From NCBI GenBank assembly GCA_948144175.1, contig CANXME010000222.1:1192501-1256500 (forward strand): DNA of 64,000 nucleotides. The letters are read 5' to 3'. Below are positions 4,730 to 60,659 of this stretch, in pieces. This stretch comes from Closterium sp. NIES-65. Lineage: Eukaryota > Streptophyta > Zygnematophyceae > Desmidiales > Closteriaceae. The first letter of the stretch is position 1, and each line of letters starts with the position of its first letter. The translations under genes were made by a program, and so were the position numbers. The notes under the pieces were generated by a model, which was not told the DNA's origin, searched no databases, and worked only from the letters and a program-made list of their open reading frames with translations.

Positions 4730-5217
4730 CAGGCGGCCGTCAGGGCGCTAGGGCGGGCGGCGCTCAGGCGGCAGGGCGAGCGGCCGTCAGGGCGCTAGGG
4801 CGGGCGGCGCTCAAGCGTCAGGGCGGGCGGCCGTCAGGGCGCTAGGGCGGGCGGCGCTCGGGCGCTAGGGCGGGCGGCGCTCGGGCGCTAGGGCGGGCGG
4901 CGCTCGGGCGCTAGGGCGGGCGGCGCTCGGGCGCTAGGGCGGGCGGCGCTCGGGCGCTAGGGCGGGCGGCGCTCGGGCGCTAGGGCGGGCGGCGCACGGG
5001 CGCTAGGGCGGGCGACGCTCGGGCTCTAGGGCGGGCGGCCGGCAGGATTTAGGGCGGGCCGCGCTCGAGCGCTAGGGCAGGCAGCGCGCGGGCGCTAGGG
5101 GCCGTTAGGGCAGATCGAAAAAAAAGGAAGTACTAGGGCCCGGAGCGCGCTCCGGGCAGAAAAAAAAAGGTTACGAGGTAGCGGTGGTGGGCCCTAAGAA
5201 CAGTTCCCACAGGGGAA
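4730..5217 (-). repeat. Leader of element C with 23-bp tandem repeats
   Basis: This is a GC-rich untranslated leader between primer site and gag. From about 4850 to 5005 a 23-bp unit (CGCTCGGG CGCTAGGG CGGGCGG) repeats about seven times with few changes, flanked by looser copies on both sides. Leaders of E, D, F and B1 occupy the same place but repeat different units. Confidence 0.75.
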
Positions 5218-41071: not shown

Positions 41072-44000
41072 CTACTCCCACATGTCATCCTTGAGGATTT
41101 GCCATAGGTCCCCGAGGCTTGGCTCCCACGGGTTAGCCGCTACCTGTGGGTGCGCTGCCTTGAGTGCGCAGTTGGATTTGGCCATCAGGGCATTCGCCTG
41201 GCAGCACTGGAGCATTACCGACCATCTCTGTTGGTAGTGCGCCATGAACTTCGAGGCTACAGTAGTGAGCCTCCCCTGTCTGTGCTTCTTCTTAGCAGCC
41301 TGGGTGCCCAGGAGGCGGAAGAACCGCTGGGTGTCCCTAGCTAGGGCCCCGTAGGTTTCCACCGCCAGACCGAACACCCCCACAAAACCCGGGCGGCCCT
41401 CGTACAGCCCCCGTTTCACTCTTGCCACGTCCTCTGCCGCCCACCCCGGTGCCTTTACCGCTCTCTTGTCACGCCGCTGCAGGACAGGGTCCGTGACTGT
41501 CACATCAGTGACATATGTCTCGTTGGACTCCTTGTCGCGAATTACCAAGTCCGCTCGCTTTTGGTTGGTTATGGGCGAGAAGGCTGCTGATTCGTGCAAG
41601 GTTGTGTAGTCCACTCCTTGAGCCATCCGGAGCGCTGCGAACACCAGAGCGTCGTGAGTGTTAGTCCTGTCCCCTCCGTTGGCACACCGCAGCAGGTGGT
41701 TCGGTAGGCTTCTGTCCCCGATGCCTGACCGCTTCCCCTTGCAGAGGCACCTGTCTGTGACCGCCACGGGCAGACCAAGCCGGAAGCCAAGCGCCACTGC
41801 AAACTGACTGGGGGAGAAGGTGAGGTCGCCTCTCGTAGGGATAGCTAATGAGCCATTGTCAACCATGGGCTTGTCCGCCCTTGTGTCTCCCACGAGCTCG
41901 GCTGCCCTATCTAGGTTTACCAGCTTTGAGAGGATCAGCTGCACGTGTCCCTTCACCTCCCCCTTCTGGTGGTGTTCCTTCAGGACCTCCCGAGCCTACT
42001 CTGGGAGCTGGTTCGGAAGGTCAGTGAGCGTCGCCCCTCCAGCCTCCGTCCCCTGGGCTCCTCCCATCGGTGACACCAGGTCCGTCACCTGCTGCAGTGG
42101 GTTGTCCGCCGTCATTGCCGTGTGCCTAAGGAGGGTGTTGGCTGCATGGAGGGAGGCCAGGTATGCCGCTGGTGCCTCGGAGAGCGGGTCTATCAGCCCC
42201 AAGCCACCGAGGCACACCGGTAGCGTGGCTTGGCGCCATACCAGGGTCTGCTCCAGTTTGCTCGTAGGAGCATGCATCTTTGCCGCTTTTAGTGCCGTCC
42301 ACAGCAGTTCCTCACTCGAGTCCCTCCATTCCACAGGTGGTAGTGTGTCAGCTGGGGTGGTTCTGAGCATATACGAGATGCGTCGCGACACACATCTCGA
42401 GAGGAGGAGGAGTGCGTGTTGTGGGTGCAGTTTGCGAATGAGGTTCAATGGCGACGCCACCGTTCTCAGTGTCGTTCGTATAGACCTATTCCCGTACTCT
42501 CTGGTGCCCACCAGGCTTCCCAACACCCGTATCCCGTCGACCGCCGCCCTCAGTCCTTCTTGAAGAACATCCGAGCAACCTGCAGGGCACCACACCGATG
42601 ACTTCTCCAGGTTGCACCGCAGTCCGCACTTGCGTAGCTCCTCGGCGATGACGTTCATTCCCCTAATCGCTTCCGCCGGTGTGCCAATGATTGTGATGTC
42701 ATCCGCGTACGCCATCACCACCGTGTTGGGGCACATCGCTGCCGCCCTCAATAGGGTTGGTTGTATGGCCGCCGCAAAGAGCATCGCCCCCAGTGGGTCC
42801 CCCTGGCGCACGCCACGTGCACTCTCGATGTACCGTTTATTGAAGCCCTGGTCTAGTAGGAGGCGTGCCGGTGCGGCGTACAGCGTGCGAACTAGCGGCA
42901 AAACTGGCTCGAGCGCTGTCCATTTGAGCGCCGTGAAAGAACTCCCACATTCCACGGAGTTGAAAGCGTTCTCGATATCCAGCTGTATTGCGATTTGAGA
43001 CGGGTCATCCGTCAGTAGGGCTCTGGTAGCGTGTATCACTGTCTCCGCTCCTCCGGGTAATGCCACGCCGAACTGGACTGGGAGGAAAAATTTCCTGATA
43101 TCGGGCGATATTTTCCGTAGTGCCGCTTTAGCCGTTAGCCTAACTATCGCCTCGCCAATCGCAATCGGCCTGACCCCACCTCCTGGATTCTCTAATGCAA
43201 TCAGCCTCGCTGGTAGGAGGAGATCCCTAAAGGACGAGCTAAGGGAGGTACAGGAGTAAGAAGACCTCCCCATTCAGCAGCGCAGGGTCACGTAGGTGTT
43301 CAAAACACGTGCCAGATGGCCCCGCCCCACTCCCGTTCGGGAACTTAGCTAAAACTTCGCAAAATTTGTCCGCCGCGATCGTCAGGGATGATGTCTCGTA
43401 TCCGGTAATCCATCCAGGCGTTGCTTCCCCCGCTCTCGGATGTTTTGTGCAAAGTGCTACGAGTGTTGCTGGTGATTGCTCGGCAAGGGGGGCAGACTGT
43501 AACGCCACTAAGGCTTTCGCCAGGTTTGCCTTCTGTACTAGGCCCTCCACTCAGGCACACATGCCTTCCGGGTCCGGTTGGTGTCTGCTCGGTTGGGGGT
43601 TCGGGGGAATGACGAAGGCTTCCGAGAAGAGCACCTCCCAGTCTTCCTCTTGAAATTGCTGAAGTCGCTTCTCAACCACGGCCCAGCGGTTTCCTCGAAC
43701 CCTCTCGATTTCGGCTCGGAGGGTCAGCCTGGGTAGGTATTGCAGGATTCGCCACGCACCCACGCAGCTAGGAACCTTCGCGAGTCTCAGCAGGGGGATC
43801 GTCATGCAATAAGCGTAGACACCCAGGATTTTGGGTGGAAGCTTCCGGAACACAAAAGGGTTGGGCGCTGCAATACATTGGCCCCAATTCCCACCCTTCC
43901 ACTTGGCGCCAAACTGCTGGGCCATTTGCGATGTCTGCTGGCGATCTTGCCTTGCTGGCCGTCTCACTGGGATGGGCGCCACGTGATTCGCCCACATTGG

Positions 44001-44406
44001 CGTCTGCCCGGTTTCCCTCCACCCTAGTTCCTCTGTTTGTCTCTCCAGCTGGGATACCCTGCTCATCCTCTAGTGACACGTCCTCCGAATCCCCCTGCTC
44101 CTCCTCCATATATTCATTGTCTTCATCTTCGTCACAGTCATTCATTGGGCTAATTCCTTGTTGTCGCTCAGGCCTCCCGTGTCTTTCCCGCCACGGACCA
44201 GATCTGGCTTTCTCTCTGGCCACAGCTGCCGCCAGGCCTCCTTGCCCTGCCCTTCTGCGCGCACCCCGCCCGCCGCGCCCTCTCCCCGTCACCAGCGCTT
44301 GTCTCCGAGTTCCTACTGGCGGGTTTCCCGCCACTGCCTCCGCTGCGCGTTCTCGCAGCAGCCTCTGCCGCGCTGTTCCTTCTCGGCGACGGTCAATCAC
44401 AATCAC
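41072..44406 (-). pseudogene. LINE ORF2 of L-b: RT and endonuclease, broken
   Basis: The N-terminal part is basic/acidic (MIVIDRRREGTARQ, AREKARSGPWRERHGRP), followed by the conserved pre-RT region (LPPKILGVYAYCMTIPLL), RT (GGGVRPIAIGE, VQFGVALPGGAE, ARGVRQGDPLGAMLF, YADDITI near 42700), CLGGLGLIDP, the zinc motif (CLCKGKR ... NHLLRC) and the endonuclease segment KRADLVIRDKESNETYVTDV. Lesions are a frameshift near 43855, TGA at 43551-43553, a deletion plus shift near 43240-43270, TAG at 41996-41998 or close by, and an apparent loss of about 17 residues before the zinc motif. The C-terminus (PWEPSLGDLWQIL) is complete. Confidence 0.88.
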
Positions 44407-44501
44407 CTGCTCTTCTTCTACGACCGCCGCCCCGTCTTTCGCTTCGGCCCCCGCCCGTTCCGCTCTTTCGTGGGGCCGATCCGCTACGTTCCCCGTACCT
44501 G

Positions 44502-45948
44502 ATGATGGGTAGGCGCCGGCAGCCTTGGCGTGAGGTGATCGTGGCGGCGAGATCTCCTGCTGCGCCCACCCTACCAGCGGCCCCGGGCGGGCAGGTGCCA
44601 GCCCTGTTCCGAGCCGTCACGGACTGCTTGACTGCGGGTGTTGGCGCCACATCATCTTCGAGCGCGCCTGCTCGGCCACGGGAGCCGGTGTATCGCTCCC
44701 CGCGTGGGCTCATTCATCCGTTTCTCCGTGCGCGTGGCCATTCGTTCCGTCGTCGTTGCCCCCCTCGCCCGCTCCTGTCCGGCCAGGCTCGTCCTCGACC
44801 TCAGCTACACGCGTCGGCCACACGGTCCCAGCCGTTGCAGCTACCTTCGGCCTGGTCTCAGTCCGCGTCGTCCCGCTCGGAGGCGCCGGATGCGCCGGCG
44901 CAGTCTGCGCCGCTAGCCCCTCTGCCGCAGCCTCCCCCTCTAGCGTCGGAGTTGGCGTTGCCTCCGCTGACATGTCCTTCCGTGCCCGTCCCTCCGCCGC
45001 CTCAGCCCGATTCCGCACCTCCGGTTGGCGTGCAGGCGCATCCCCCGACGTCTGCCCCAGGGCCCGGCCTAGGCGCGGCGCCGCCACCTCCTCAGCCGTC
45101 CGCTCCGCCTCACGCGCCGCCCGCGTTGGGGCCGACTCCCGTTGCGCCGCTTGCGTATTCGTAACCACCCCGGTTAGATTTGGCGGATTTCACACCTCTT
45201 GTTCCCCGGGGGCTTCCTCTCCCTGTTCCCGCTCCTCATGGGCCTCAGCGCCAGCACCCTCTAGTTCTGGGGTCTCGCCTCCCTGCGGCTCGGCTCGGAT
45301 TTGTGAGTTACCCGCGTTCTCGTCTCCTCCCCGCTCTTTGCGTGATGTTCTCCCCTGCCCCCCACTCATCTGCTGTGTTTTGCGATTTCCACGTCCCTCG
45401 CCATCCTGCGCCCCCTTCACTCCCGCAGCATCAGCCTGTGCCTGGAATCTCCCGCGGCTACTGGAGCGAAGACGAGGTGCCTGGCACCACTCGTGACCCT
45501 GAGGTGGACTGGGATGGTGTCTCGTGGCCACATGTGCCGCGTGAAGGGAACTGAAACACTCCCCCCCGAGCCCTCCTTGGGGTGAGCCGCGGCCTGGAGA
45601 CGGGGCTTACCAGTCCGTGGCATGCACCTGGCGGAGGTTGGCCGCTGCGTGTCAGAGCTGTTGTTCGTGCTTGACCTCCTACATGGCACCCTTCAGTCGC
45701 GGGAGGTGGTGGCGCGGGATCCGCAGATGAATGAAGACCAGCAGGGACGGGTGCGGCGTGCAGTGTCGGGTGCGCTGTGTGATGTCTTGCATCTGCTGCT
45801 TGAGCCTGCGGACCCGTTGCTGGACGATGGGCCTGGCGCTGCGACTTTCCGCTAGGTAGCCAAGGCTGCTGAGGAGTCCCGGCTTGGGATCGTCCCTGCG
45901 AGCGCGTGTGTGCTCCGGTAGCTTGGGCGGCGGGTGAGGCGGATGTAG
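44502..45948 (+). pseudogene. Antisense ORF of L-b (opposite to ORF2), unknown function
   Basis: This ORF is on the plus strand, head-to-head with L-b ORF2, with 95 bp between the two ATGs. It starts at ATG 44502 (MMGRRRQPWREV), then GGQVPALFRAVTD, VYRSPRGLIHP and RARGHSFRRR. A proline/serine-rich middle follows, then a predicted helical C-terminal domain (45622-45948: VLDLLHGTLQSREVV, DPLLDDGPGAATFR). Breaks are a TAA near 45163, a frame change between 45554 and 45622, and TAG at 45853 and 45919. The same protein, in the same place, is seen in L-e and L-f. Aligned with L-e, differences fall mostly at third positions of this frame, so it, not the minus frame, was under protein-level selection. 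I do not recognise the family. Confidence 0.65.
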
Positions 45949-46089
45949 GTGTTGACCTGGCCGCTGCTGTGGTGGTTGCCTTCTTCCTCATGGCTTGGGG
46001 ACTTACCTTAGTGCTGCCCATTCAGTACTATACTTGCATGCATGTACTGTACCCTGTGCAACTCCTCCTTTCCTATGTTGTTCTTGCCA

Positions 46090-46316
46090 CCCCAAACGCG
46101 CGAGCCGCTGGGTTGGGTGGATCCACACTCACCGGAGTATAATGAGTGGAATGAACCAAAAGAGGAGGCTATATAGGTGCTCGTACAACATATAGGCGTA
46201 CTGCAGTGGCTATACTAAGGGCTCAATGCGAATGGAGGCTAAGGACTACGCTAGACTAGGTACATACTAAGCTAGAGAGCTAGGGAGCTGGGAGAGGCTA
46301 AGGACTGGGCCTAGTG
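46090..46316 (-). promoter_or_regulatory. 5' UTR block of L-b
   Basis: On the minus strand this is the LINE 5' end. A TATA-like ATATAGCCTCC (about 46152-46163) is shared with L-e, as is CAACCCAGCGGCTCG. The UNCG hairpins present in L-e and L-f are missing here. Confidence 0.45.
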
Positions 46317-46930
46317 CCTCTCTCTCTCTCTCTAATGGTCCTTGTATTGATATAGATGGCAAGTACAAGCATGCAAGTCATAGAGTCATAGGTTACACAC
46401 ATGCAAAGCACAAGCACCACAGATCTACAACTCCACTAGGGGCTCAATGACCGCGAAGCAGTCCCCAAGGTGCAACTCGTCCCCAATTCCCCCCACAGGC
46501 GGGTTTTCTACTGCCGCAGCCTCTCCAAGCTTGAGCAGGAGACCCACAGATTGGGCCCTTTGCAGGGCCACCGACCAGCGTTGCCTGAACTGGTGCAGGA
46601 ACTTTGCAGCATAGAACGATTTGGAGTCGGCGTTGAAGTGGCATGGAGCTGCAGTGTCCGCCAAGAGCTTCAGGAAGACTGGCACCTCCGCGCAGGGGCA
46701 ACCGTAGGTGTCCACCGCAAGTGGGAAGAACTTCACCGTCTCCGGCAGGGTGGCGTAGTGCTGGATCTTCTTGTCCGCTTGCTCTCGTGCCGCCCAGCCC
46801 CTGCCTTTCTGCGCCTCTGGATCCCTAGTGATAATAGGGTCAGTAATGGTGACGTCGCATACGTAGACTGCCCCACCGCTTCTGTTCGTCATTGTAAAAT
46901 CTGCCGTCTGTTCCTCAATAGGGCAGTGCG
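46317..46930 (-). mobile_element. LINE copy L-c, 5'-truncated (type II)
   Basis: On the minus strand it starts within the endonuclease region at about 46930 and ends with ATATCAATACAAGGACC and a (GA)n run of about 17 bases touching the 5' end of L-b. It is flanked by GA runs on both sides, so it probably inserted into a GA junction. Confidence 0.8.
46425..46930 (-). pseudogene. LINE ORF2 C-terminus (L-c, type II)
   Basis: Open from AHCPIEEQTADFTMTNRS through GGAVYVCDVTITDPIITRD and GWAAREQADKK to the stop at 46425. It resembles the C-terminal part of L-d (TADLTIRDRSSGAVWIGDVTITDP) and differs from type I copies by ITDP for VTDP, the segment YGCPCAEVP, and a C-terminus reading LHLGDCFAV instead of SLGDLWQ. 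RT and zinc motif are absent through 5' truncation. Confidence 0.82.
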
Positions 46931-46931
46931 C

Positions 46932-49460
46932 CTCTCTCTCTCAAGCGGTCCTTGTATTGATATAACGGGTGAGTACAAATGATCGAGGCAGAATAGAAAC
47001 AGGCAACACCAAAGACTAAAAGAACAACCTAGCAGCAAACCAGATCCTAAGAACAACCTACAACCCCTCCCACCAACCACCACCCCCCCCCCCCACTGGA
47101 AGCTCCTAAGGGGGCTCAGCAGTAGGTTCGAGCACCACAAAACAGTCCCCCAGGGACATTTCCTCGCCAGGAGCCCCGACAAGAGGGTTCTGGGCCTCTG
47201 CTGCCATGTTGCACTTGGCCAAGTAGCTTACGGCCTGTGCGCGCTGAAGGGTGACCGACCATCTCTGGCGGAACTGGTTGAGTAGTTTTGCCGCCTGATA
47301 GGTTGAAGGGTCGGCGTTGAAGAGCTTGCGTGCAGCCGTGTGGGCCAAGAGCTTGAGGAAAGCGGGGACCTCTGCGCATGGGCAGCCATAAGTCTCGACT
47401 GCGAGGGGTACGAATGAGACGTAGGCTGCCGGGGAGCCGCTGTAATCTGAGATTTTTTTGTCAGCGGCTTCCCTGGCAGCCCACCCCCTCCCTTTCACCG
47501 CATTGGGGTCGCGCGTGCTGATGGGGTCAGTGATGGTGACGTCCCCGATCCATACTGCCCCTGAGGACCGATCACGAATGGTGAGGTCCGCTGTCTTCCT
47601 AGTGACCGGGCAGAACTCGGCCGTTTCATTGTGCACCATGAACCCGGCGTACTGTGCCATCCTAATGCACTCATCCCTCAGCTCGTTGTGAGTATTTGTC
47701 CTTCCTCCTCCTGTGGCGCAGCGTAGCAGATGGTTTGGGAGCCGATTGTCTGGGATGGGAACCTGCTTGGTGCAGTCACAAGCGCCGTGGGCTGAAAATG
47801 GTAGTCCTAGCCTGAACTGTAGGGCTGTGGCAAAGTGGGGACCGTCGAGCCTCAGGGAGGGCATGAGCGGGACTGCATGGAGCCAGTCCCGGCTCCGTAC
47901 CCTGACAAAGAGAGAAGGCGCTGCGTATGGCCGCTTTTGGGGTTTGGGGTCATGCCCCGTGTGCTCTCCACCTGGTTAGCATACCTTCTGCCCTGAACTG
48001 CCAAAGCTAGCCCCTGCTGCAGCTTCACACCCGTGGGAGCAGCCCTGTCACTCTGTAGTAGCTCCCCGACATCACTCGGTAGGTCTGCCTCGCACTGAGC
48101 TAGCCAGCGGTAGAGAGCGCAGGAGTCCGTGTACGGTCCCATCATCTGCACCCGTGTCCCTGTCAGGGGCCCCAGCTGGCTATCTTCAAGGGTTGAGAGC
48201 AGCTGCTGTGCCTGGGTAAAGCTAGCTAGGTAGCTGTAGCTGCCCTCGACCGCGGGGTCAGTGATTCCGAGGCCCCCGAGTGATACTGGCAGCGAAGCTT
48301 GGGACCATGTACGAGAGATCTCAGCGTCACCCCGCGGATGCCTAATGCCACATGCCGTTAACAGAGTCTCAAACAACTGCCTGCCCCAACTGGACCACTC
48401 ATACAGAGGCATATGCATGAGGGGTGTGGTCCGGATGAGGTAGGAAACTCGTCTTGAGATACACCTGGAGAGTAGCAGGGCAGCCAGCTGAGGTTCCATC
48501 CGTGCTATCAGGCTAAGAGGTGCCGCCATGGAGCTAAGGTTTGAACGAATGAAGTCTGCTGTGGCCTCATCGGAACCTATGAAACTGCCTAGCAGCTTCA
48601 CGCCGTTTCCAGTGAACGGGACACCCTGGGGTAGGGCAGAGGTGGGGATGCCTGACTGTGACCAGGCCGCGCATTTAGATGGGTTATGATGCAGGCCAAT
48701 TGGCATGAGGCTCTCATTGAAGTGCTGAAACGCTGCAACGCAGGTAGATTGCTCCCCTAGGAAGGTGACGTCGTCTGCGTACGCTAGGCAGGCTACAGTA
48801 GGGAAGGCTTGGGCTGTAGCTTGCAGCGCGGGATTGATTGCCGCTGCAAACAGCAGTGGCCCAAGAGGGTCTCCCTGCCGAACTCCTGTCATGCTTAGCA
48901 GGGGCTCATGCTTGAAGCCCTCGTCCAGGTAGAGCGGTGAGGGGGCCCCGTAGGTGAGCTGTACTAGTGGAAGTAGTGGTGCTAGAGATGAATTGTCTAG
49001 CGCGGATGCTATTGCAGCTCTGTTGACACTGTTGAAGGCGTTGGCTAGGTCTGTCTGGAGGACTAGCGCGTGAGGATTTTCAGATAGGTAGGCGCGGGTG
49101 ATGTGGATAACCGCCTCCGCTCCCCCAGGCACCGCCACGCCGAACTGGTGTGGCATGAAGAATTTTCTTGCCGCCCCTGCTGTCAACATCAGAGCTGTTT
49201 TGGCGGCGAGTCTTGTGATGCTTTCACCAATAGCGATCGGCCTTGTCCCTCCGTCTGGTTTGGAGAGAGCCAGTAGGCGAGACGCTGTGAGGAGCCTGGC
49301 GACTGTGGATGGCAGTTTCCCTGTCAGAATGGTGTTGACCATTGCGTGGATGTTTGTCGCTACTGACTGATTGACTAGACACGCCTCCTGCTCATGCTCG
49401 AATGTCAGACCTGATGGGCCCGCCCCAATCCCATTGTCACAGCGTGACAGAACTCTGTCC
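46932..49460 (-). mobile_element. LINE copy L-d, 5'-truncated (type II)
   Basis: On the minus strand it runs from inside the region before RT (joined in frame to L-e at about 49460) to the 3' end ATATCAATACAAGGACCGC, then TTGAGAGAGAGAG at 46932-46945. 46946-47105 is its 3' UTR. Confidence 0.82.
47106..49460 (-). pseudogene. LINE ORF2 of L-d: type II RT and endonuclease
   Basis: It enters at NGIGAGPSGLTFEH just before RT. RT motifs are GGTRPIAIGESITR, HQFGVAVPGGAE, TGVRQGDPLGPLLF and YADDVTFLG (near 48780). SLGGLGITDP follows. A frameshift near 47880-47895 precedes WLHAVPL, and the second frame holds the zinc motif (CDCTKQ ... NHLLRC), the endonuclease motif TADLTIRDRSSGAVWIGDV and the C-terminus to 47106. 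Compared with type I copies the RT has FMPHQFG for FLPVQFG and DLANAFNSV for DIENAFNSV, so it is a clear subfamily. The frame upstream is shared with L-e. Confidence 0.86.
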
Positions 49461-50020
49461 CAAGGGTCAGCCCAGGCCTGGGGGTATGCTGCCTCCGCCG
49501 CCCTGTTGGACTTTGCCAGCATGGCGTTGGCTTGGTAGCGCTGCAGCATTACCGACCACCGTTGTCGGTAGTGCGCCGTCATCCTGGAGACCACCGTGGT
49601 GAGCCTCCCTTGGCGGTGCTTCTTCTTGGCCGCACTCGTCCCTAAAATGCGGAAGAATTTCTGTGTGTCTCTTGCTAGTCCCCCGTAGGTTTCCACAGCC
49701 AGGCCCAGGACCCCCGCAAACTCAGGGCGCTCCTCATACAGCCCCCTTTTGGTCCTGGCAGCGTCCTGTGCTGCCCACCCTGGCGCCTTTCTCTCTTGGG
49801 TATCCCGCCTCTGCAGCACTGGGTCGGTCACCGTCAGGTCTGTGAGGTAGGTTTCACCCGACTCCCTGTCACGGAAGACCAGGTCCGCCCGTTTAGGGTT
49901 GACTTGGGGCGAAAATCCTGTCGTCTCGTGCAAGGTAGTGAAATCCGCTTCACGTGCCATGCGTAGTGCCGCGTACACCACCGCGTTGTGGGTGTTGGTG
50001 CGGTCCCCCCATCCGCGCAT
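47852..50020 (-). CDS. Chimeric open frame: L-e C-terminus fused to L-d RT
   Basis: This is one open frame of 722 codons. Its first about 185 residues are the end of L-e ORF2: endonuclease motif KRADLVFRDRESGETYLTDL and the type I C-terminus up to AYPQAWADPWD. It then passes without a stop into the pre-RT and RT region of L-d (RVLSRCDNGIGAGPSG onwards). Sister copies continue PWEPSLGDLWQ at that point, so the join at about 49460 is a breakpoint that happens to keep frame. The order endonuclease then RT is the reverse of a normal ORF2. Whether it is expressed is unknown; I regard it as a by-product of recombination or insertion-deletion. Confidence 0.6.
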   Translation of the reverse strand: MRGWGDRTNTHNAVVYAALRMAREADFTTLHETTGFSPQVNPKRADLVFRDRESGETYLTDLTVTDPVLQRRDTQERKAPGWAAQDAARTKRGLYEERPEFAGVLGLAVETYGGLARDTQKFFRILGTSAAKKKHRQGRLTTVVSRMTAHYRQRWSVMLQRYQANAMLAKSNRAAEAAYPQAWADPWDRVLSRCDNGIGAGPSGLTFEHEQEACLVNQSVATNIHAMVNTILTGKLPSTVARLLTASRLLALSKPDGGTRPIAIGESITRLAAKTALMLTAGAARKFFMPHQFGVAVPGGAEAVIHITRAYLSENPHALVLQTDLANAFNSVNRAAIASALDNSSLAPLLPLVQLTYGAPSPLYLDEGFKHEPLLSMTGVRQGDPLGPLLFAAAINPALQATAQAFPTVACLAYADDVTFLGEQSTCVAAFQHFNESLMPIGLHHNPSKCAAWSQSGIPTSALPQGVPFTGNGVKLLGSFIGSDEATADFIRSNLSSMAAPLSLIARMEPQLAALLLSRCISRRVSYLIRTTPLMHMPLYEWSSWGRQLFETLLTACGIRHPRGDAEISRTWSQASLPVSLGGLGITDPAVEGSYSYLASFTQAQQLLSTLEDSQLGPLTGTRVQMMGPYTDSCALYRWLAQCEADLPSDVGELLQSDRAAPTGVKLQQGLALAVQGRRYANQVESTRGMTPNPKSGHTQRLLSLSGYGAGTGSMQSRSCPP

Positions 50021-52860
50021 CTCAGTAGGTGATTTGGCAAGCTGCTGTCTGCTATCTTGGAGCGCCTGCCGCGGCAGGGGTAGTTTTCTGTGACTGGAAG
50101 GGAAAGGCCGAGCCTGAAGCCTAGGGCTATGGCGAATTGCCCGGGTGAGAAGGTGAGGTCCGCTCGCGTGGGTATGGCATGCAGCCAGTCTCTTGCCCCT
50201 GGCGCCTGCAAGGCTATGAGCCGCACCACGTGCCTGTTGTCCTCGCCCGGCTTGTCTACCCGGGTGTCTCCTATCAGCTCCGCTGCCCTGTCCAAGTTAA
50301 CCTCGCGGGATAGCCCCAACTGCAGCCGCCCTTTCCCCCCCCTCTGATGGTGGTGCTCATGTAGGAGTTCCAGTGCCTTTTCTGGTAACTTGCTTTTAAG
50401 GTCCTGCAGGATCTCTCCTCCCCGTGCCGACACCTCGATGCGTTATGTAGATACCAGGTCTGCAGCCCGCCGCAGGGGGTTGTCTGGGTGCTCAGGGAGG
50501 CCACTTAGTAGGGTGTGGGCCGCGCATAGGGATGCCAGGTAGGCTGCGGGTGCTTCCGAGACCGGATCTATGAGGCCCAGCCCGCCGAGGCATACTGGAA
50601 GGGTCGCTTGCCTCCACACCAGGCTCTGTTCGATCTCCTTCCTTGGCACGTGCAGGTGTGCCGCTTTGAGCGCCGTCCACACCACTCCATCGCTCCACTC
50701 CCGCCATTCTTCTAAGGGCAGCATGTCTGCCGGTGTTGTCCGAAGCAGGTACGAGATGCGCCTGGATACGCAGCGTGACAGTAACAGTAGGGCATGCTGC
50801 GGGTGGATGCTGCTGAGAAGGTCGAGGGGGGCTGCCACCGCGTCTAGGGAAGCTGTGATCATGCGCCTCCCGTATTCCTTTGTTCCTATGGGGCTCCCAA
50901 AGACGCGTATGCTGTCTACTGCTGCTACCAGGCTGTCAGGAAGGTCGTCCGGTATGCCTGATGGGCTCCAGGCAGATGATTTTGCGAGGTTGCATTTGAG
51001 GTCGCGGCCAGCAAGTTGACTGGTGATGATCCCAAGGTGAGTGCCGCTTCCTGCGCCGTCCCCACGATTGTAATGTCATCAGCGTAGGCCATGACCGTGA
51101 CCGTCGGGAAAATGTCAGACGCCACCTGGAGCGCCGGTTGAATAGCTGCCGCAAAGAGCATGGGGCCTAGTGGATCTCCCTGACGGACCCCGCGCGCACT
51201 CTCGATGTGAGGCTCCGCGAAGCCGTGATCTAGTAGTAGGCAGGAGGGTGTGCCGTACAGCGTACGCACTAGTGGTATGATGCGGCTGAGTCCAGAGAAA
51301 TGCAGTGATTCGAAAAAACCGGCGCGTTCAACCGAGTTAAAGGCGTTTTCGATATCTAACTGCAGCACCACTCGCTTCAGATCCTCATCTAAGAGCGCCC
51401 GCACCGTGTGAATAATACATTCGGCGCCTCCAGGTACTGTCACTCCGAATTGTACCGGGAGGAAGTATTCTCGGATGGGCGTGCTTAGTTCCCTAAGCGC
51501 TGCCTTGGCTGTGAGTCATAGTATCGCTTCTCCTATGGCTATGGGTCTGACACCGCCGCCCGGTTTCTCCAGGGCTACTAGTCTAGATGGTAGCAAGAGC
51601 TGCGTCAGTTCCGCTGGCAGGTGGGTGCTAAGGACGTGGTTGACAACGCCATGCAGGTAAGAGCAAACTTCATTGTTGGTGAGCGCGGGGTCTCGGAGGT
51701 GCTCGAAGCAGGTGCCTGAGGGTCCCGCTCCAATTCCATTGGGGCATCTCGCCGTTACTTTGCGAAATGTCTCTGCTGACGTTGCTAGGTTGCTGGAGGC
51801 GAATCCTGTTACCCAGTTTGGGGTTTCGCTCCCTGCCCCAGGGTGCTTCGCTCTTAGTGCTTCCAGGGTCGCATTTGATGGTTCTGCGAGTGGCGAAGTT
51901 TGTAACGCTGCTGCTGCTTTTGCGAGATTTGCCTTGCGCACGAGCCCCTCCGCCCTCGCGCAGATGCCCTCTGGGTCCGGCTGGTGACGACTCGGTTGGG
52001 AGTTCTGGGGTATGGTGCAGGCATGGGAGTACAGTAGGTCCCACTTTTCCAACTTGAACTGGTCCAGCCTTGTCGCCACCTCGCTCCTCTGTTTCCAGGT
52101 GCGTTCCCAATGTTAGCTCTCAGTGTGAGTCGGGGCAGGAATAGCAACATTTGCCAGGCTCCTTGGCAGGTCGGGTTCTTGGAAAGCCGCAGCAGGGGAA
52201 TCGTGAGGCAGTAGCTGTAGATTCCGAGAATGTTGGGGGGAAGCTTCCGAGCTAGGAAGGGCTGGGCACTGTTGCGTAGAGGTGACAGGTCCCACTCCTT
52301 CACCTTCTGCCACGTGGCCTCGTCATCCGCGATATCTGCTGCTGAGCGCTCTCTATTTGCTGCCCTCGCGCTAGCCTGTGCACTTGATTCGGCCCCCTGG
52401 GCTGGTTGTGGGCCACGCGGCCTCCTCTGTCCCTGGTTTGCGCCTGTGTTCGGGATCCCCTCCTCTGCGTCGAGGGATATATCTTTAGAATCCCTCTCCT
52501 CCGATTCGATATATTCCCCGTCACTTCCTTCATCCTCTCCCCTCATTGAGTTTGCGTTCTGTCTTGTGCCAGACCGCAGAGGCCTTCCGTGTCTTTCCCG
52601 CCAGTCCCCCGATCTGGCCTTTTCCCTTGCTAACGCTCGTACCAAGTTTCCCAGGCCTCCTCCCCTGCCTCGGCCCCTCCCTCGCGCTCCTCGTGCTGCC
52701 GCTCCAGGCGTCACGGTTTCCGGCGGTCGACCTTCAGCTCTCCGGTTGGCCTGCTCCCGCAGGGCCTGCTGCCGGTTCGTTCCCCCTTGGTGACGGCCGC
52801 GTCTCGCCGCGGCCCTCCTCTCCTCTGCCTCTTCGGCGGCGCTCTCCCTCTCCTGCTGCG
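49460..52860 (-). pseudogene. LINE ORF2 of L-e: RT and endonuclease, broken
   Basis: Conserved sequence starts around GTNRQQALREQANRR and AREKARSGDWRERHGRP, then LPPNILGIYSYCLTIPLL. A frameshift near 52095 precedes the pre-RT region. RT shows GGGVRPIAIGE, VQFGVTVPGGAE, RGVRQGDPLGPMLF and YADDITIVG (near 51080). Further lesions are TGA at 51516-51518, a frameshift near 51035, TAA at 50443-50445 and a frameshift near 50010 just after the zinc motif (CRGRRSK ... NHLLRCADGG). The minus frame stays open upstream to 53593, but that part is antisense to a better conserved plus-strand ORF, so I place the likely start near 52860. Confidence 0.85.
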
Positions 52861-52893
52861 CCTCCGCCTCTTCTCCCGCGATCTCCAGCGGTG

Positions 52894-54244
52894 ATGACTG
52901 GTCGGCGCCGCCCTCCACCTTGGCGACTGCCTGGGGCGGATCCGCCTGATGCGTCCAACCCACAAGGGGCCAAGGTCGGGCGGGTGCCAGCCCTTTTCCG
53001 AGCCGCCGCTGATGTTGTTGCGGCCGCGGCTTCTGGTGGCGGTTCTTCTCAGGTGCGCGTCGGTTCATCTGCGCCTCGTGGGCCGATTTATCGGTCTCCC
53101 CGCGGGCGGACTCATCCGCATGTAAGGGCCCGGGGTCAATCCTTCCGCCACCGCCGCCCTCCCCGGCCATCTCCGTTGCTTGCCCCGCAGTCCGTGCGAT
53201 CCTTGGTTCAGGCCCCACGGTCACAGGTGCCACTGGTGCCTTAATCGCAACCATCGACGCAGCCCCTGCCGCCTCGATCGTTGCCGTCGCTGGCTTCTTC
53301 TTCGTCACAGCAGCAGCATTTGTCTGCGCCGGCGGCACTGTTGTCCTCTCCATTGGTGGCGCCGCCCGGGGCTGAGCTTGTGGCGCCGTCTGCGTCTTCC
53401 GGCCCGAGTTGCTTGCCGCCGCTGCCGCCGCCGATGTGGGCCTCTCTTCTAGCGCTTTAGACGCCACAGGCCCAACTGCAGGTCTCTCAGTGTCAGCCGA
53501 GTCCTTCTCTGCCGCCGCTAACCTCTCATCCTCCGCAGATTCAGCCGCCTCCTGCGGCTCAACAGCCGTCTTTGTCGCCGGTCCCCCACCCACCGGAACC
53601 TCCGCCTCAGGGGCCTCCTTCTCAGCCGGCGCAGGCCTCCCTATGTCCTCCGTCTGCCCTCCCTCAATCTCAGCCGCCCTTGCAGCCTCCTGTGGTGCCG
53701 CCGCCGCCCCCTCCCTGTGGGGCCTCAGTCTCTGCCGCCGCCGCCGCCGGTACCTTCTCCCCTCCCCCCGCCTCCTCCTCCCCGTTTATCGCCACCGGCG
53801 CCTCCTGGTCCGCCTGCTGATCCCTGGGGGGTGTCATGGTCTCGTCGCCCGCGTAATGGTGGTTGGGGCCCTCCCTGGTGCGCTCCTCCTGCCGAGGTGC
53901 CGTATCCCACCCCTGATTCGCGGCTGTTGCAATTTTGCCGTTGTGTGGCTGGCGTGGCTGCTGTGTTGGAGCACCTCCATCATGCTCTTCAAACGCGGGA
54001 GATTGTCCAGCGTGATCCCGAATTTGGCGAGCTGCAGTTGGCGCACGTGCGGGCGGCGGTGGCTGGCGCACTGTGGGAGGTGTTGTGTTTGCCGCTGGAG
54101 TCTGTGGATCCTGTACTGGACGAAGGTCCTGGCACCGCGGCCTTCCGAAGGGTAGCCAAGGCTGCTGAGTCGGCGCCTTTGGAGGTGGTCCCTGTGATCT
54201 CGTCCTTGCTCCGCTGGCTTGAGCAGCGGGTGCGTCAGGTTTAG
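52894..54244 (+). pseudogene. Antisense ORF of L-e (opposite to ORF2), unknown function
   Basis: Starts at ATG 52894 (MTGRRRPPPWRLPG), followed by GRVPALFRAAADV, IYRSPRGRTHP and RARGQSFRHRR, all alignable to L-b. A proline-rich middle (53260-53930) has a TAA at 53242 and a frame change near 53750. The C-terminal domain at 53927-54244 is intact: VLEHLHHALQTREIV, DPVLDEGPGTAAFRR, SSLLRWLEQRV, stop TAG at 54242-54244. Over two stretches aligned by hand with L-b, differences by codon position in this frame are 13 : 7 : 31. In the overlapping minus frame most of them become second-position changes. Function unknown; an ORF1-like or regulatory role is speculation. Confidence 0.7.
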
Positions 54245-54400
54245 GCGGCTTCGCCTTTGTCACCTTGGTTGTGGGCTTTTTCCTCCCCATGCCTGGGGGC
54301 TTACCTATTGTGTGACTCTTGGCAGCCTTAGTTGAGCCCTTTTGTAATGTATGCCATTGTTTAACGTTGCTCTTGTCCCCTTGTACTTGCCTCCCCTCAC

Positions 54401-54660: not shown

Positions 54661-55017
54661 CTCTCTCTCTCAAGCAGTCATGTATTGACATGGTTTGCAA
54701 GGTACAAGCAAGGAGCTACCACTCGGTCTAAACGTGCAAGCAATCGTGAGTCCAACATAGCGAGACCAGCAAGCTAGGCAAACGAACAACTAGCAAAACA
54801 CAGAGAACCAGCTCTCCAGATGTTGAAACAGGCCACCACACACTAGGACGAACGAGCCAGCCAGTACCAAGGCCACCAAACCCTGTCCCTACAGTCCTCC
54901 TGCTTCTGGACTCCCCCTACTGATCCTGCCTCTCTGTCCACAGTCCCTTTCCCCATACGCAGCTTCCTGCCGTCGTCCGGCTAAACCTCCCCCACTCCCA
55001 CTCCCTCCCCGCCCTCT

Positions 55018-58000
55018 AAGCCGTTCTGGCAGGGGCTTGACGCTCCTCGTACTCATCCTCTTGCATTTGCCAGAGGTCCCCCAGCCGGGGGGCCCAGGGG
55101 TCTGCCGGCGCCTGTGGAAAAGCCGCCGCGGCCGCCCTGTTCGACTTAGATAGGAGTGAAGCATGACCAACCACCGCTGCCTGTAGTGTGCATTAAGGCG
55201 GGCGGCAGTGGTGGTGAGGCGCCCCTGGCGGTATTTCTTCAGTGCCGCATAGTTGGCTAGCATACGGAGGAACTGCTGGGTGTCGGCCGCCAGGGCTCCA
55301 TAGGTCTCAACTGCCAAACCAAAGAAGCCGACGTATCCAGGGCGCCCTACGTAGAGCCGATGTTTTGTCTGCGACGCCTCCTCCGCTGCCCATCCTGGCG
55401 GTTTCCGTGCCCTCACATCCCTCCTCTGCAGGACCGGGTCCGTGACTGTCACGTCTGTTGCCCAAGTCTCCCCTGATTCCGGGTCCCGAACGGCGAGGTC
55501 CGCTCGCTTACTCGCTACAGGGGGAGAGAAGGCAGTCGTCTCGTGGAAGGTCCTATACCCTGCTTCCTGCGCCATGCGGAGGGCTGCAAAGACCAGGGCG
55601 TTGTGGGTGCGCACCGCATCCCCGCCGTCGGCACAACGGAGCAGATGGTTTGGCAGGCTCTTGTCAGCAGTAGAGGAGTTGGATCTCCTGCAGGGGCAAA
55701 CCTCCGCTACCGGTAACTCCATGCCAAGGCGCAGGCCCAGTGCCATGGAGAACTGACCAGGGGAGATTGAGAGGTCAGCCCTCGTTGGCACTGCATGGAG
55801 CCAGTCACCTGCTCCCACTCCTTTCAAGCTAATTAGCCGAATTGCATGGCCCCTGTCCACCCCCGGCCTATCTGTGACCGTATCTGCGAGCAGCTCTTCC
55901 GCGCGCGTGTGGTTAATGGCCTTAGACAGGCCCAGCTGCAGGTTGCCCATGCCTTTCAGGTTCTCCCTATAGCCGCGGAGGACTGCTGCAGCCTGTGCTG
56001 GGAGCCTGGCCTCAAGCGGTGCCAGCGGGTTGGCCCGGGGGGGCGGTGGGGCCCATGTCGGGGAGAGGAGATTCCCGGCCTTGTGAAGAAGGTAGTCTGG
56101 CGGCAGGTTCAGCTGCTACAGGAGAAGGTGCGCCGCTGCAGTTGAGGCTAGGTACGCTGCTGGGGCTTCGGAGATGGGGTCAATGATTCCCAAACCTCCT
56201 AGCCGCACCGGGAGCGTGGCCTGGCGCCACAACAGACTCTGCTCCAGCTCACTTGGCGGGATCCGAAGCTTTGACGCCGCGAGCCCGGCTCCTACCAGTG
56301 CCTCGCTCCACTCCCGCCACTCCGTACGGGCCAGTGCATCCGCTGGTGTTGTGCGTAGGAGGTACGAGATGCGGCGGGAGATGCTCCGAGATAGCATGAG
56401 TAAGGCGTGCTGCGGGTTGAGTTGGGCGACGAGATGTAGCGGCGCCGCCACCTCCGCTAGCGTCCTGCGGACCTGGTCGGTGCAGAAGGCGTCGCCGCCA
56501 ACCGGGCTGCCCAACACCTTCAAGCCGCCTGGGTGGACAGGAAGACCATGTGGCAGACCATCCCCTCCTTCCTCCCACAAAGCCCACCACGCCGCGGACT
56601 TGGTAAGGTTGCAACGTAATCCGCATGAAGCCAGCTCCGTGACTACTGTGTTAAAAGCCACGCACGCCACCTCGCGAGGCCCGACGATGGTGATGTCGTC
56701 GGCATACGCTACTATTGCCACCTCCGGTATGCTCGTGGCCACGCTGAGTAGTATCGGCTGGATTGCTGCCGCAAAAAGGAGAGGCCCCAGCGGATCCCCT
56801 TGGGGGACACCTCTGGAGCGTACGATGTGCTCAACTTCCAGACGGGGGTCCACAAGAAGCCGCGAGGAGCCATCGTAGAGGTTCCTGACAAGCGGGAGCA
56901 GCGTGTTGAGAGTAGACCACTGGAGGGCGGAGAGGAATGACGCGCGTTCTACACTGTTAAATGCGTTTTCCACATCGAGCTGTAGAGCTACGCGGGTCTC
57001 GTCGTCCTTAAGGAGAGAACGAACCGCGTGGATAATACACTCCACTCCCCCAGGAACCGCGACGCCGAACTGTACGGGTAGGAAAAATTCCCGGATTTTC
57101 GGGCCCAAGCTGTGCAGCGCCGCTTTAGCCACCACGCGGAGCAACGCCTCGCCTATTGCAATTGGTCTAACTCCTCCCCCAGGCTTTTCCAAGGCTATGA
57201 GTCGAGAGGGGAGTAGGAGGTCGCGGACTGATTGACTCTGGAAAGAGCCGGCGAGGCGATTTACCACGTTCGTCAGCAACAGGAGGATCTCCTCGTTCGC
57301 TAGGGCTGGGTCTCGTAGGTGTTCAAAACAGCTGCCCGAGGGCCCTGCCCCTACCCCATTCGGGCATTTCGCGAGGATTTCGAGCAGAGCCTCGAGTGGG
57401 ATACGGAGCTCAGAGTCAGGGATCCCGCTAACCCATGATGGTGTTGGGGCGCTTGACGGTGGGTGTTTCGCCCGTAGGGCAGCCAGGGTTGCAGAGCTTG
57501 GGTCGGCGAGGGGGCTTGTGCGTAACGCCGCAACCGCCTTCGAAATGTTACCTTTTTGAACCAAACCCTCCGCTCTTGCGCAAACCCCTTCGTCATCGTC
57601 TTGATGCCTTAGCGGACCCCCCGTGTTGGGGATAGTGCAGGCTGCCTCGAACAACCCATCCCACTCTCCCAACTGGAACTGATGTAACCGAGCCTCAATC
57701 GCTGCCCACCGATTTCCAGTGACAGGCTCTGGTGGGGGGCAAAGTGTCAGCCTCGGGAGGTATAGTAGGACCGCCCAAGCACCTGGGCATTCTGGGTTCG
57801 TCGACAACCGCAGGAGAGGTGCGAGGAGACACAAACAGAATTTGTCCAGCACTTGGGGTGGTAAGCGTCTGACTAGGAAGGGTTGGTCCATCCGTTGAAG
57901 GAGATCCATAGTCCATGTGCCCGCCATTTGCCAGATGGCGTCATCCTCTGCCAGGGTGGCCGGCGATTTCACTTCGTCGGTTACCGTGGGAGCTGGCTTA

Positions 58001-59814
58001 GATACTCCTTCAGCCTGGGATGTTGCCCTGGCCACTCCCTCTCCTGTCCCTCGCACTCGATTCCGGCCTCTTCCCAAATCCTCCTCGTTAACCAGAGACA
58101 CCTCTTCGGACTCCGGGCCCGCCTCCTCTCCACACATAAACTCAGGGTCCCCCATGTCCTCAGCAGGCTCAGCATCGACCCCATTGGCTGGGGCTTCCAA
58201 AACCTCTGGGTGGTCGTGGCGTTCCCGCCAAGGGCCTGTTCGTGCCTGGATCTCCGCTCCCCCCAAGCAAGCAACACCCCCGCGCCTTCCCCCTCGCCTC
58301 CTGCGATCCATACCGCAGAAACCCCGATTCGCCGCCAGTGCTGGCTGAGGCGTCGCCGCTAGTCCCGCTCTTTCCGCCGGCATCCATGGCGTTCTGCCTC
58401 CCCTTGGTGGGCCCCACGTGACAGCACCCAAACGAGCTGAGCGACGAGTGGCGACGGCCGCCGCAGTTGGAGCTACTGGGCTTGACGGTGAGTGCGTGTG
58501 TGCTCCGCTGTCCTGGTTTGGTGCCGGCTGCTTTGCCACACGGGTTGTTGTTGCCTCTGTTGTCGCCTCATTGAGCCCAGAAACCCCCCGTGCCTCTTGC
58601 GTGTGCGCAAATGACGACCGATGCACTCGCTCTGATGGCAGTTGCCCTTGCAGAAGCCAGCCCAGGAGGGGTCCCGGGGAGCCAGGTCCCAGCCCTGCTC
58701 CGAGCCGTCTCGGCGCTGGCTGGGCCCGCGGCTTCCTCGTCGACATCACTCGTGCAGCGCCTAAGGCAGCGCCGTTCGGGGGCCTCGGAGTCTCTCCCTC
58801 AGCCTGGACGTGCTCCTGCCTCCTTGAGGCCGCGGTAGCAGCAGGCATTCCGACGTTCGCAGCGGCAGTCGTCGCGCCTTCCGCCGTTGGGGCGTCGCCT
58901 CGCACCCCAGTCGCAGCAGACACCGCCGCCGCCAGCACGGCCGGCGTCACCGGCGCCGGTGACGCGGATAGCGCCGCCTTCGCAGTCTGTTCCGGACTCG
59001 CGCCCAGCCTCGTCCCCTCAGCCTCCGCCTGTGCAGCCCGCGCGGTGGCAGAGGGCGAAACTGAGCCGGCGTCAAAGGCAGCGGCAGAGGCGCCAGCAGA
59101 CACCAGGACCGCAGGCACTCCAGCAGCCGCGACTCCAGACTCCTCACCAGCCGCCACCGCGGGCGGCGCAGCCGCCTCCAGCTCAATCTCCGCTCCGTCG
59201 GTTTCCTTTACCCCTCCATCCGTAGCAGCATCGCTCCTCGGTGTACCATGTTCCTCCGTCCCCTCCTCCGCCCGCTCAGGTCCCTCAGTCTGTGTCGGGC
59301 CCCTCGTCATTCCATCAGTACTCATTCCAAGGCCCCCCTGTGCAGCACCCATGGGTTCCAGTAACGCCTCCTGCCCCGCCGCCCCCTCAAGCCGAGGTTC
59401 CTGGTCAGCCTCCAACTCTCGTCGAGCAGCGCGTGATGCACGTGGGGACTTGCTTGACGCTCTTGTCGTACGTGCTAGACCAGCTTCACGTGACTCTGGT
59501 GCAGCAGGAGGTGCAGATCGGGGCAATGCAGCCAGCGGAGCAGACGGCGGCAGTGGCGGCCGCGGAGGAGTTGCAGCATTACCTCCCGCTGATTGGCTTT
59601 GTGCCGGGCTCCCCCGGGGCTGCCCTCGGGCCCGGCCCTGGAGCTTTGGCACGGCTTGCCGAGTCTGCCCAGGAGGACCCTCTCGACCTTGTAGCCGCTG
59701 CCGCGTCTGTCCTACGCTGGTTGGACGGGCGGCTTTGCTGGATCCTGGTTGAGTAGCTGGTGCCTTCCCTTTACCGGCCGCCTGAGAGGCAGGCCTGGCT
59801 TTGGGCTTCCCCAT
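55018..59814 (-). pseudogene. LINE ORF2 of L-f: RT and endonuclease, two lesions
   Basis: The minus frame is open from ATG 59814 to TAG 56116-56118 (1232 codons). The first 500 codons are low-complexity and antisense to the conserved plus-strand ORF, so ATG 58311 (MDRRRRGGRRGG) is a plausible true start. Motifs are TGPWRERHDHPEV, LPPQVLDKFCLCLLAPLL, RT (GGGVRPIAIGE, VQFGVAVPGGVE, SRGVPQGDPLGPLLF, YADDITIVG near 56700) and LGGLGIIDP. After the TAG the same frame continues with WLHAVPTRADL, the zinc motif (CPCRRSN ... NHLLRCADGG) and the endonuclease segment KRADLAVRDPESGETWATDV. A frameshift near 55165 alters the last part; the family C-terminus ends near 55018 in another frame. RT has GVPQGDP where others have GVRQGDP. 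Confidence 0.88.
58590..59756 (+). pseudogene. Antisense ORF of L-f (opposite to ORF2), unknown function
   Basis: One plus-strand frame from ATG 58590 (or 58611) to TAG 59754-59756, with only two in-frame TAGs (58836, 59223), each directly followed by CAG. The N-terminus carries GSQVPALLRAVSALAGP, matching VPALFRA in L-b and L-e, but lacks their GRRR-PWR start. The middle is proline/glutamine-rich (PSPPPPAQVPQSVSGP, SFHQYSFQGPPVQHPW). The C-terminal domain (59430-59756) reads VLDQLHVTLVQQEV ... LGPGPGALARLAESAQ ... ASVLRWLDGRL and aligns with L-e. From 59226 onward it is open. I cannot name a family. The composition resembles RNA-binding or coat-like disordered proteins, but no domain supports that. 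Confidence 0.68.
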
Positions 59815-59972: not shown

Positions 59973-60058
59973 GGCGCGAGCCGCTGGGTTTGGGGAATAA
60001 ACTGAACTCACCAGTGAAGAATGAGCTCAAAAAGGGTGCATCTAAGGACTATATACTA

Positions 60059-60060
<2 letters not shown>

Positions 60061-60154
<94 letters not shown>
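60061..60154. repeat. (CT)n microsatellite, about 94 bp
   Basis: Nearly pure CT with a single G at about 60093. On the minus strand it is the (GA)n run at the 5' end of L-f. Confidence 0.95.
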
Positions 60155-60155
<1 letters not shown>

Positions 60156-60271
60156 AACAAACAAGCCGCTGGATTCGCAGTGAGAATTGGCTCACCACCG
60201 AGGAATTGGGGAATAAACTGAACTCACCAGTGAAGAATGAGCTCAAAAAGGGTGCATCTAAGGACTATATA

Positions 60272-60273
<2 letters not shown>
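60155..60273 (-). repeat. Duplicated 5' end of L-f between two GA runs
   Basis: 60208-60273 repeats 59992-60058 almost exactly (TGGGGAATAAACTGAACTCA ... GGACTATATACTAT). With the adjoining CT run it forms a tandem duplication of about 216 bp of the LINE 5' terminus. Confidence 0.88.

Positions 60274-60341
<68 letters not shown>
60274..60341. repeat. (CT)n microsatellite, about 67 bp
   Basis: Pure CT run. On the minus strand it is the (GA)n tail at the 3' end of L-g (CAATGAAGGACTTCTGGAGAG). Much longer than the tails of the older copies. Confidence 0.95.
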
Positions 60342-60342
<1 letters not shown>

Positions 60343-60659
60343 GAAGTCCTTCATTGATAGGTTCATAGGGGTACAGGCATGGCAAGAACAGGTGCAGAAC
60401 ATCCCTAGTACTGCGAGCAGCCGGTAATGCTTGGCAAGGCCGAGGTGGGCACCACGGGTGGCCAGGCTAGCAAATCCTTTGTGACAGTGGGTCATGAACT
60501 TGGGGACAAGTGAGGGGGTGCAAAACACACAGAACATGCCCACAAAGCAAGGCCCACCCGAGCTAGGCAAACAAGGCAAGGCAAGGCAATCCACAGAGGC
60601 CTGAGCCAGAGAAGCATTTGGCTAACACTTAGCCAGACCCCATGCAGTATCTATCCCGC

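Follow-up and report, generated by a model that had tools for sequence, protein, structure and literature searches.

A 64,000-nucleotide (nt) stretch of the Closterium sp. NIES-65 genome (contig CANXME010000222.1, positions 1,192,501 to 1,256,500; hereafter the window) contains minus-strand long interspersed nuclear elements (LINEs) whose open reading frame (ORF), which bears the reverse transcriptase (RT), is overlapped on the plus strand by a second gene. Based on the divergence of these elements and of their copies elsewhere in the genome, we propose that this R2-like LINE family is probably ambisense and carries an antisense-encoded accessory protein, the expression and function of which we infer from sequence.

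A conserved protein antisense to the LINE

The right part of the window holds tandem minus-strand LINEs with (CT)n microsatellites at their 5' ends, and three of these (L-b, L-e and L-f) have a plus-strand ORF antisense to their 5' third. The first-pass annotation of this DNA had reported the copies in L-b and L-e, both of which we recover, and had missed the third, in L-f. The features are as follows, with a slash marking splice junctions.

44502..45302, plus: L-b antisense gene, exon 1, with ATG, Arg-rich YRSPRG/RARGxSFRxR motif and Pro-rich linker (from sequence and translation)
45162-45164, plus: in-frame TAA in L-b exon 1
45303..45428, plus: L-b antisense-gene intron, 126 nt, TTT/GTGAGT ... 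CCCGCAG/CATCAG
45429..45948, plus: L-b antisense gene, exon 2, C-terminal helical domain, stop TAG at 45946-45948
45628-45909, plus: L-b antisense ORF, C-terminal part
41081..45991, minus: L-b LINE ORF, decayed, start ATG at 45991, RT (RVT_1) and C-terminal endonuclease-like part
46318..46333, no strand: (CT)n microsatellite at the 5' end of the L-b LINE unit, where homology ends for many copies
52894..54244, plus: L-e antisense gene, ATG at 52894, ORF part 53522-54241, C-terminal domain 53915-54241
49463..54290, minus: L-e LINE ORF, frame-shifted, start ATG at 54290
58611..59756, plus: L-f antisense gene, the third copy, C-terminal domain 59424-59735, two in-frame TAG
55156..59814, minus: L-f LINE ORF, start ATG at 59814, 1256 codons open stop to stop, RT

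The plus gene is damaged in all three window copies: in L-b, frame breaks accompany the exon 1 TAA, and exon 2 has decayed through indels and a TAG near 45854; the Pro-rich linker of L-e is interrupted by stops and a frame shift; and L-f carries its two TAGs. The L-f LINE ORF has a single frame break, near 56117.

In tblastn searches of the window, the C-terminal piece of the L-e protein matches the L-b copy at 54% identity over 90 codons (E 7e-25), the N-terminal piece matches it at 50% over 94 columns (E 1e-16), and the L-e pieces also reach the L-f copy at 59424-59735 (34%, E 6e-8). Across the 90-codon gapless block shared by L-b and L-e, differences fall at plus-strand codon positions 1:2:3 as 32:20:45, which bears out the third-position excess counted by the annotation on a smaller sample (13:7:31). 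In this block the plus frame has a ratio of nonsynonymous to synonymous divergence (dN/dS, omega) of 0.37, against 1.76 for the LINE frame that is open opposite it, in agreement with the earlier view that the open minus frame has a non-coding pattern here. One closed minus frame, whose third positions are common to the plus frame, scores almost as low (omega 0.40) and has two to three stops in each of the three window copies. When the LINE frame was shuffled synonymously, none of 1000 shuffles reached the observed plus score in any of three pairs; in the reverse shuffles, of plus codons, the LINE-frame similarity was matched in 9, 420 and 127 of 1000. Based on the shuffles, the codon pattern and the stops in the closed frame, we therefore conclude that a conserved protein is encoded on the plus strand.

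Selection across genomic copies

A DNA search of the genome (874 Mb) with the L-b region gave at least 63 matches, those covering most of the region being 69-94% identical, the window itself apart. We took 19 loci from this search (L009-L027). In 17 of them (L009-L025), homology to the LINE body starts no more than about 32 codons from the plus ATG, with only a short stretch of LINE body in L010 and L011; the other two, L026 and L027, are fragments. Thirteen of the 15 copies displayed, out of these 17 loci, run into (CT)n beyond the antisense gene, in accord with the annotation's placement of the plus ORF inside a GA-bounded unit. As judged from these boundaries, the predicted antisense gene is shown to sit inside the mobile unit. 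Intact plus-strand copies occur outside the window: in L023 and L024 the plus strand is open throughout (663 codons stop to stop), and the plus gene of L019 and L020 is interrupted by a single stop, their LINE ORF being intact (1709 codons stop to stop).

Copies were aligned without the near-duplicates L011 and L013 and without L026 and L027. In the plus frame, omega is 0.27-0.50 for exon 1 (ten pairs) and 0.27-0.42 for exon 2 (among the seven pairs listed), versus 0.90-1.22 and 1.05-1.6 in the LINE frame. Omega for the RT and endonuclease is uninterpretable for some pairs (L010, L014, L016, L017), in which LINE sequence is missing or badly aligned. In three pairs with no sequence used twice, the counts of differences by plus position (1:2:3) are 143:179:298 in exon 1 (p=2e-19) and 61:54:117 in exon 2 (p=1e-8), the intron has no codon periodicity (38:45:43, p=0.62), and in the adjoining LINE body the pattern flips (133:294:95, p=4e-37). 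Overlapping 240-nt windows in two pairs give the same picture, with a plus position 3 peak in 8 of 8 windows in the plus exons and a LINE position 3 peak in 27 of 27 in the LINE body. Between subfamilies, changes silent on the plus strand and altering the LINE protein number 385 versus 249 expected, plus-altering changes are depleted (ratios 0.80 and 0.84), and new plus stops number 12 versus 26 expected. These comparisons show the putative antisense gene to be under protein-level purifying selection between element subfamilies. The annotation had held that a plus-frame dN/dS near 1 would speak against its proposal; this is not the case between subfamilies, although pooled close pairs, taken up below, do approach it.

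The antisense gene lies within the LINE ORF

The boundaries of the two coding patterns can be placed on the L019 sequence, whose coordinates are used in this section. Scanned in 120-nt windows over eight pairs, the excess of differences shifts from LINE third positions, where it is found as far as about 4760, to plus third positions, where it extends from about 4773 to the plus stop, bar the intron and two weaker windows. Past the plus stop no pattern is seen, save for a single weak window of LINE type (6220-6339). The plus ATG (4773), the plus stop (6234) and the LINE ATG (6282) are each kept in all 14 copies compared (14 of the 16 alignment rows; L022 and L023, poorly aligned, were left out). 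No other LINE-frame ATG between 6282 and 4416, which is 357 nt into the LINE body, is found in more than five of the 14, and the plus stop lies 43 nt from the LINE ATG in L019 and in L-e. The LINE frame shows constraint at 4000-4760, with an omega of 0.15-0.23 for nine of the ten pairs and 0.57 for the closest one, and the LINE start must therefore lie upstream, in the overlap. Because the conserved LINE ATG is located beyond the plus stop, the predicted antisense gene is wholly inside the LINE ORF, opposite roughly codons 16-504. The two genes had been described earlier as antisense and head-to-head; the antisense orientation holds, but the arrangement is not merely head-to-head. A GTAAG resembling a splice donor, which lies on the minus strand of L-b and L-e shortly before the LINE ATG (at about 46003 and 54303 of the window), was considered and dropped, as it is absent in L-f.

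Opposite the antisense gene, the LINE frame contains few stops. L-f has none (5.5 expected). A further count took in 10 copies, skipping exon segments whose length is not a multiple of three (exon 2 of L024, L009, L-b and L010, exon 1 of L016, both exons of L017) and counting L024 without its intron. It gave none in either L019 exon (3.0 and 2.4 expected; 5.3 for the two together) and none in the intron in nine of nine copies (0.7-1.5 expected each, these copies being related and not independent). Between subfamilies, exon changes that create a LINE-frame stop number 5 versus 29.3 expected. Taken with the LINE-frame omega values above, these counts show that the LINE strand opposite the predicted antisense gene is unconstrained in protein sequence yet keeps its reading frame largely open.

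A probably spliced antisense gene in the L-b group

The plus-strand stop of L019-L022 falls between TTT/GTGAGT and CCTGCAG/CATCAG. The copies aligned around the intron did not include L-e, L-f, L026 and L027. Across the 15 rows that retain the intron, GTGAGT is the donor in 13 and AG the acceptor in 13, the length is 126 nt in 13 and 125 nt in two, and an in-frame stop removable by splicing is present in seven, L019 and L020 included. Four gene models (P0123, P0124, P0129, P0131) splice at exactly this junction (GF/HQPVPG). The published annotation of NIES-64 and NIES-65 used Augustus with RNA-seq hints together with PASA transcripts (PMC10407611); the word retrotransposon is absent from the main text of that paper. 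In the L-b group, conserved splice signals bound a stretch that lacks coding selection, as in a spliced protein-coding gene. Over nine pairs the intron has three gap runs, all with L012, versus 22 in the leader beyond the LINE ATG. Two further models, P0122 and P0154, appear to fuse antisense genes of different LINE types.

The antisense protein and its LINE

The predicted antisense protein comprises about 445 codons and has an Arg-rich N-terminus, a Pro-rich linker and a helical C-terminal domain. A database search by words of the L-e C-terminus returned nothing at E<=1. With the L023 copy as query, at least 34 proteins were found at E<=0.01 among 8000 candidates scored, and all 34 listed relatives bear Closterium names, being gene models of NIES-64, NIES-65, Naga37s-1 and Yama58-4. 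The protein has no match among Pfam families or PDB sequences. The AlphaFold models are of poor quality, with a mean pLDDT (predicted local distance difference test) of 49 over the full-length protein and 66 for the domain taken alone; the C-terminal part is modelled as all-helical, and Foldseek searches of the PDB with these models gave nothing at E<=0.001.

On the other strand, the 1256-amino-acid L-f ORF matches RVT_1 (E 8e-23), a non-LTR-type RT (LTR, long terminal repeat) in a long ORF. RVT_1 is its only Pfam match at E<=1, with no apurinic/apyrimidinic endonuclease (APE) domain upstream. The best PDB match of the LINE RT is the R2 retrotransposon protein (E 3e-10), a match that covers the RT only; the nearest database sequences of the window RT are Closterium proteins, and in a plasmid collection it matches one group II intron RT at 25%. 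After the RT, the L019 and L020 ORFs carry what we take, by eye, to be Cys/His (CCHC) and PD-(D/E)XK-like motifs; the corresponding C-terminal parts in the window (47106-47975 and 54889-56115) have no Pfam match at E<=0.01.

A second LINE subfamily

Four stretches picked by the 3' end of another LINE type, and then eleven more, were taken as L028-L042. Six of these (L028, L034, L035, L037, L040, L041) have in common a long region of the plus strand, lying antisense to the N-terminal part of the LINE:

L028:3662-4921: second-type antisense ORF, on the basis of coding-type divergence; also in L034, L035, L037, L040 and L041

The L028 LINE body, the one tested, is about 39% identical to that of L019. 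Between L028 and L041, plus-strand differences number 46:42:116 over 3900-4921 (p=1e-14) and 17:11:57 in the C-terminal part of the antisense ORF (p=8e-13). Eight of the 15 stretches (L030-L033, L036, L038, L039, L042) have no match to the antisense ORF in the stretch taken, and may be truncated, of another type, or missed by the fixed offset.

By eye, the second-type protein is Arg-rich and Pro-rich with a helix-like C-terminus, like the L-b type. We found no homology between the L-b-type and L028-type proteins; a weak BLAST match, obtained with no composition correction, falls in the Pro-rich part. Either the two antisense proteins have diverged beyond recognition or the niche has been filled twice. 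A broader proposal, which we advance tentatively and with slightly more doubt than belief, is that the whole LINE clade is ambisense, the counterpart of the LINE ORF1 protein being an intron-bearing antisense gene nested in the RT-bearing ORF, with dissimilar Arg/Pro/helical versions carried by the subfamilies.

Proposed mechanism and alternatives

In our proposal, one strand of the element carries just one ORF, of about 1,676 codons, made up of a low-complexity N-terminal third, the RT and a C-terminal endonuclease-like part, and the other carries the two-exon gene within the first third of that ORF. The two-exon gene would have its promoter within the LINE body, and its transcript would be spliced and translated. 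Because the intron is antisense to the LINE RNA, it would be kept in the retrotransposition template and inherited by each new copy. The antisense protein would most likely act as a second protein of the element, either binding nucleic acid and forming multimers as ORF1 proteins do, or bringing the ribonucleoprotein into the nucleus. Both roles are suggested by composition. The annotation had offered that this LINE is ambisense or has a divergently transcribed partner gene, and the exon 1 omega, the conserved start and stop and the LINE body adjoining at 17 of 19 loci uphold that suggestion.

Several observations weigh against this proposal. The family and fold searches returned nothing that would back any biochemical role. 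The plus gene has stops or frame shifts in most copies, all three window copies among them, and in a related LINE, L029, found in sampling for LINEs without the plus region, the antisense region is mostly deleted. Pooled close pairs are near-neutral on both strands (exon class ratios 0.92-1.10; stops 6 versus 12.6 expected), as is the adjoining LINE body, although one of the close pairs, L019/L020, has a plus omega of 0.42. We read this near-neutrality as decay after insertion; because pooled close copies drift in this way, selection appears to work along the lineage of the element and not on resident copies. As for the intron, the models P0125, P0126, P0128, P0130, P0133 and P0144 read through it and some others splice elsewhere. 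No GT[AG]AG donor was found in the L-e and L-f stretches scanned, and the intron is therefore shown for the L-b group only. A deletion in L023-L025, not placed at the splice sites, removed the bulk of the intron along with the first part of exon 2; the plus ORF of L023 and L024 is still open despite it. Many gaps in the LINE body of these copies shift the frame (36 of 45 runs, nine pairs), and the near absence of such gaps from the 126-nt intron therefore rests on few events. The LINE frame, finally, is not open everywhere: the L-e C-terminal piece, inside which that frame is shifted, has 7 LINE-phase stops versus 5.5 expected, and exon 1 of the decayed copies has 3 versus 3.7 (L012), 2 versus 3.9 (L009) and 3 versus 5.2 (L-b).

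Among other explanations, the antisense product could limit the element, either as antisense RNA forming double-stranded RNA or as a copy-number-control protein. Any transcript of the gene, being fully complementary to the LINE mRNA, can pair with it, and similar roles have been discussed for elements with antisense ORFs of the aORF-3R type (PMC7264820) and for L1 antisense RNA (PMC8554170). Selection here acts on amino-acid sequence and reading frame, which pairing does not need; a self-limiting protein would still be selectable, and we regard a limiting role as unlikely overall. It is also conceivable that only the plus strand is coding in the overlap and that the LINE ORF starts downstream, which would make the genes a divergent pair and the open N-terminal frame an accident. 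The unconstrained amino acids of the LINE frame in exon 1, and the LINE-frame stops of some copies, would fit such a pair, but the LINE ATG is invariant at the far end with no comparable ATG before the constrained body, LINE-frame stops are avoided overall and absent from the intron, and the intron is nearly free of indels compared with the leader. On balance, we consider a divergent pair quite unlikely.

The intron and the complete gene structure, together with the lack of any viral or transposon relative in our searches, would suit a host gene captured in antisense and either riding along or domesticated by the host. This we find improbable: LINE body adjoins the plus region at all of the 19 loci but the two fragments, the near-neutrality of pooled close copies also speaks against domestication, and all listed database relatives are from Closterium. 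That the LINE strand alone is coding, the plus ORF being a by-product of GC-rich, biased LINE coding, gains something from a GC content of about 65% and from the long chance ORFs on both strands; the synonymous shuffles rule it out, the codon pattern, the intron gap and the conserved start and stop contradict it as well, and we give it practically no credence. An ambisense LINE with an accessory antisense protein is thus the reading we prefer.

Other features of the window

Microsatellites of (CT)n/(GA)n abut the LINE units of the window at 46318-46333, 54661-54671 and about 60000-60350, and are also found at the 5' ends of L009-L025, in 13 of the 15 copies displayed; they suggest that the element either inserts into GA repeats or has a 5' end made of (GA)n. 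Window positions 4000-37200 hold arrays of Copia-type LTR retrotransposons (RVT_2, rve, gag_pre-integrs and SH3 domains) in direct and inverted copies of about 74-94% identity. An Rfam scan of the whole window gave no match.

Comparison with known systems

The Closterium elements resemble R2-type LINEs in having a single long ORF with an RT. R2 LINEs abut 28S ribosomal DNA, whereas the Closterium unit abuts a (GA)n microsatellite, and we know of no antisense gene in R2. The basic region, linker and helical domain of the antisense protein recall LINE ORF1 proteins and suggest a similar role, but the Closterium protein is encoded on the opposite strand and has no Pfam match.

Primate L1 ORF0, a 71-amino-acid product tied to an antisense promoter in the 5' untranslated region and with a proposed role in mobility, is likewise an antisense ORF at the 5' end of a LINE (PMC8554170). 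It is a short ORF outside the LINE ORFs, whereas the Closterium gene is much longer, has two exons, is selected across subfamilies and is nested in the LINE ORF. The aORF-3R of plant LTR retrotransposons (Grande gene23, RIRE2, Retand, PvRetro13) and brtn of Boty, described as of unknown function, are also conserved antisense genes inside retroelements, some with nuclear products; these elements are of the LTR type, with the ORF between pol and the 3' LTR (PMC7264820). The Closterium gene differs from aORF-3R in belonging to a LINE, in its 5' location and in overlapping the RT-bearing ORF. In the titles and abstract openings of the open-access papers searched, we found no LINE with a long conserved antisense gene, and did not find this arrangement described for this class of elements.

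Significance

LINEs are thought of as one-strand elements, and L1 ORF0 is the only antisense product of a LINE known to us. If our proposal is correct, the Closterium family would be a LINE that keeps a large spliced gene opposite its own ORF, with two coding constraints over about 1.4 kb, and would offer a natural case of an intron that survives retrotransposition by its orientation. It would also serve as a test bed for the evolution of overlapping genes in which one strand keeps its sequence and the other mainly an open frame. Through its antisense gene, this family may supply a concrete candidate for the second protein that is missing from single-ORF LINEs.

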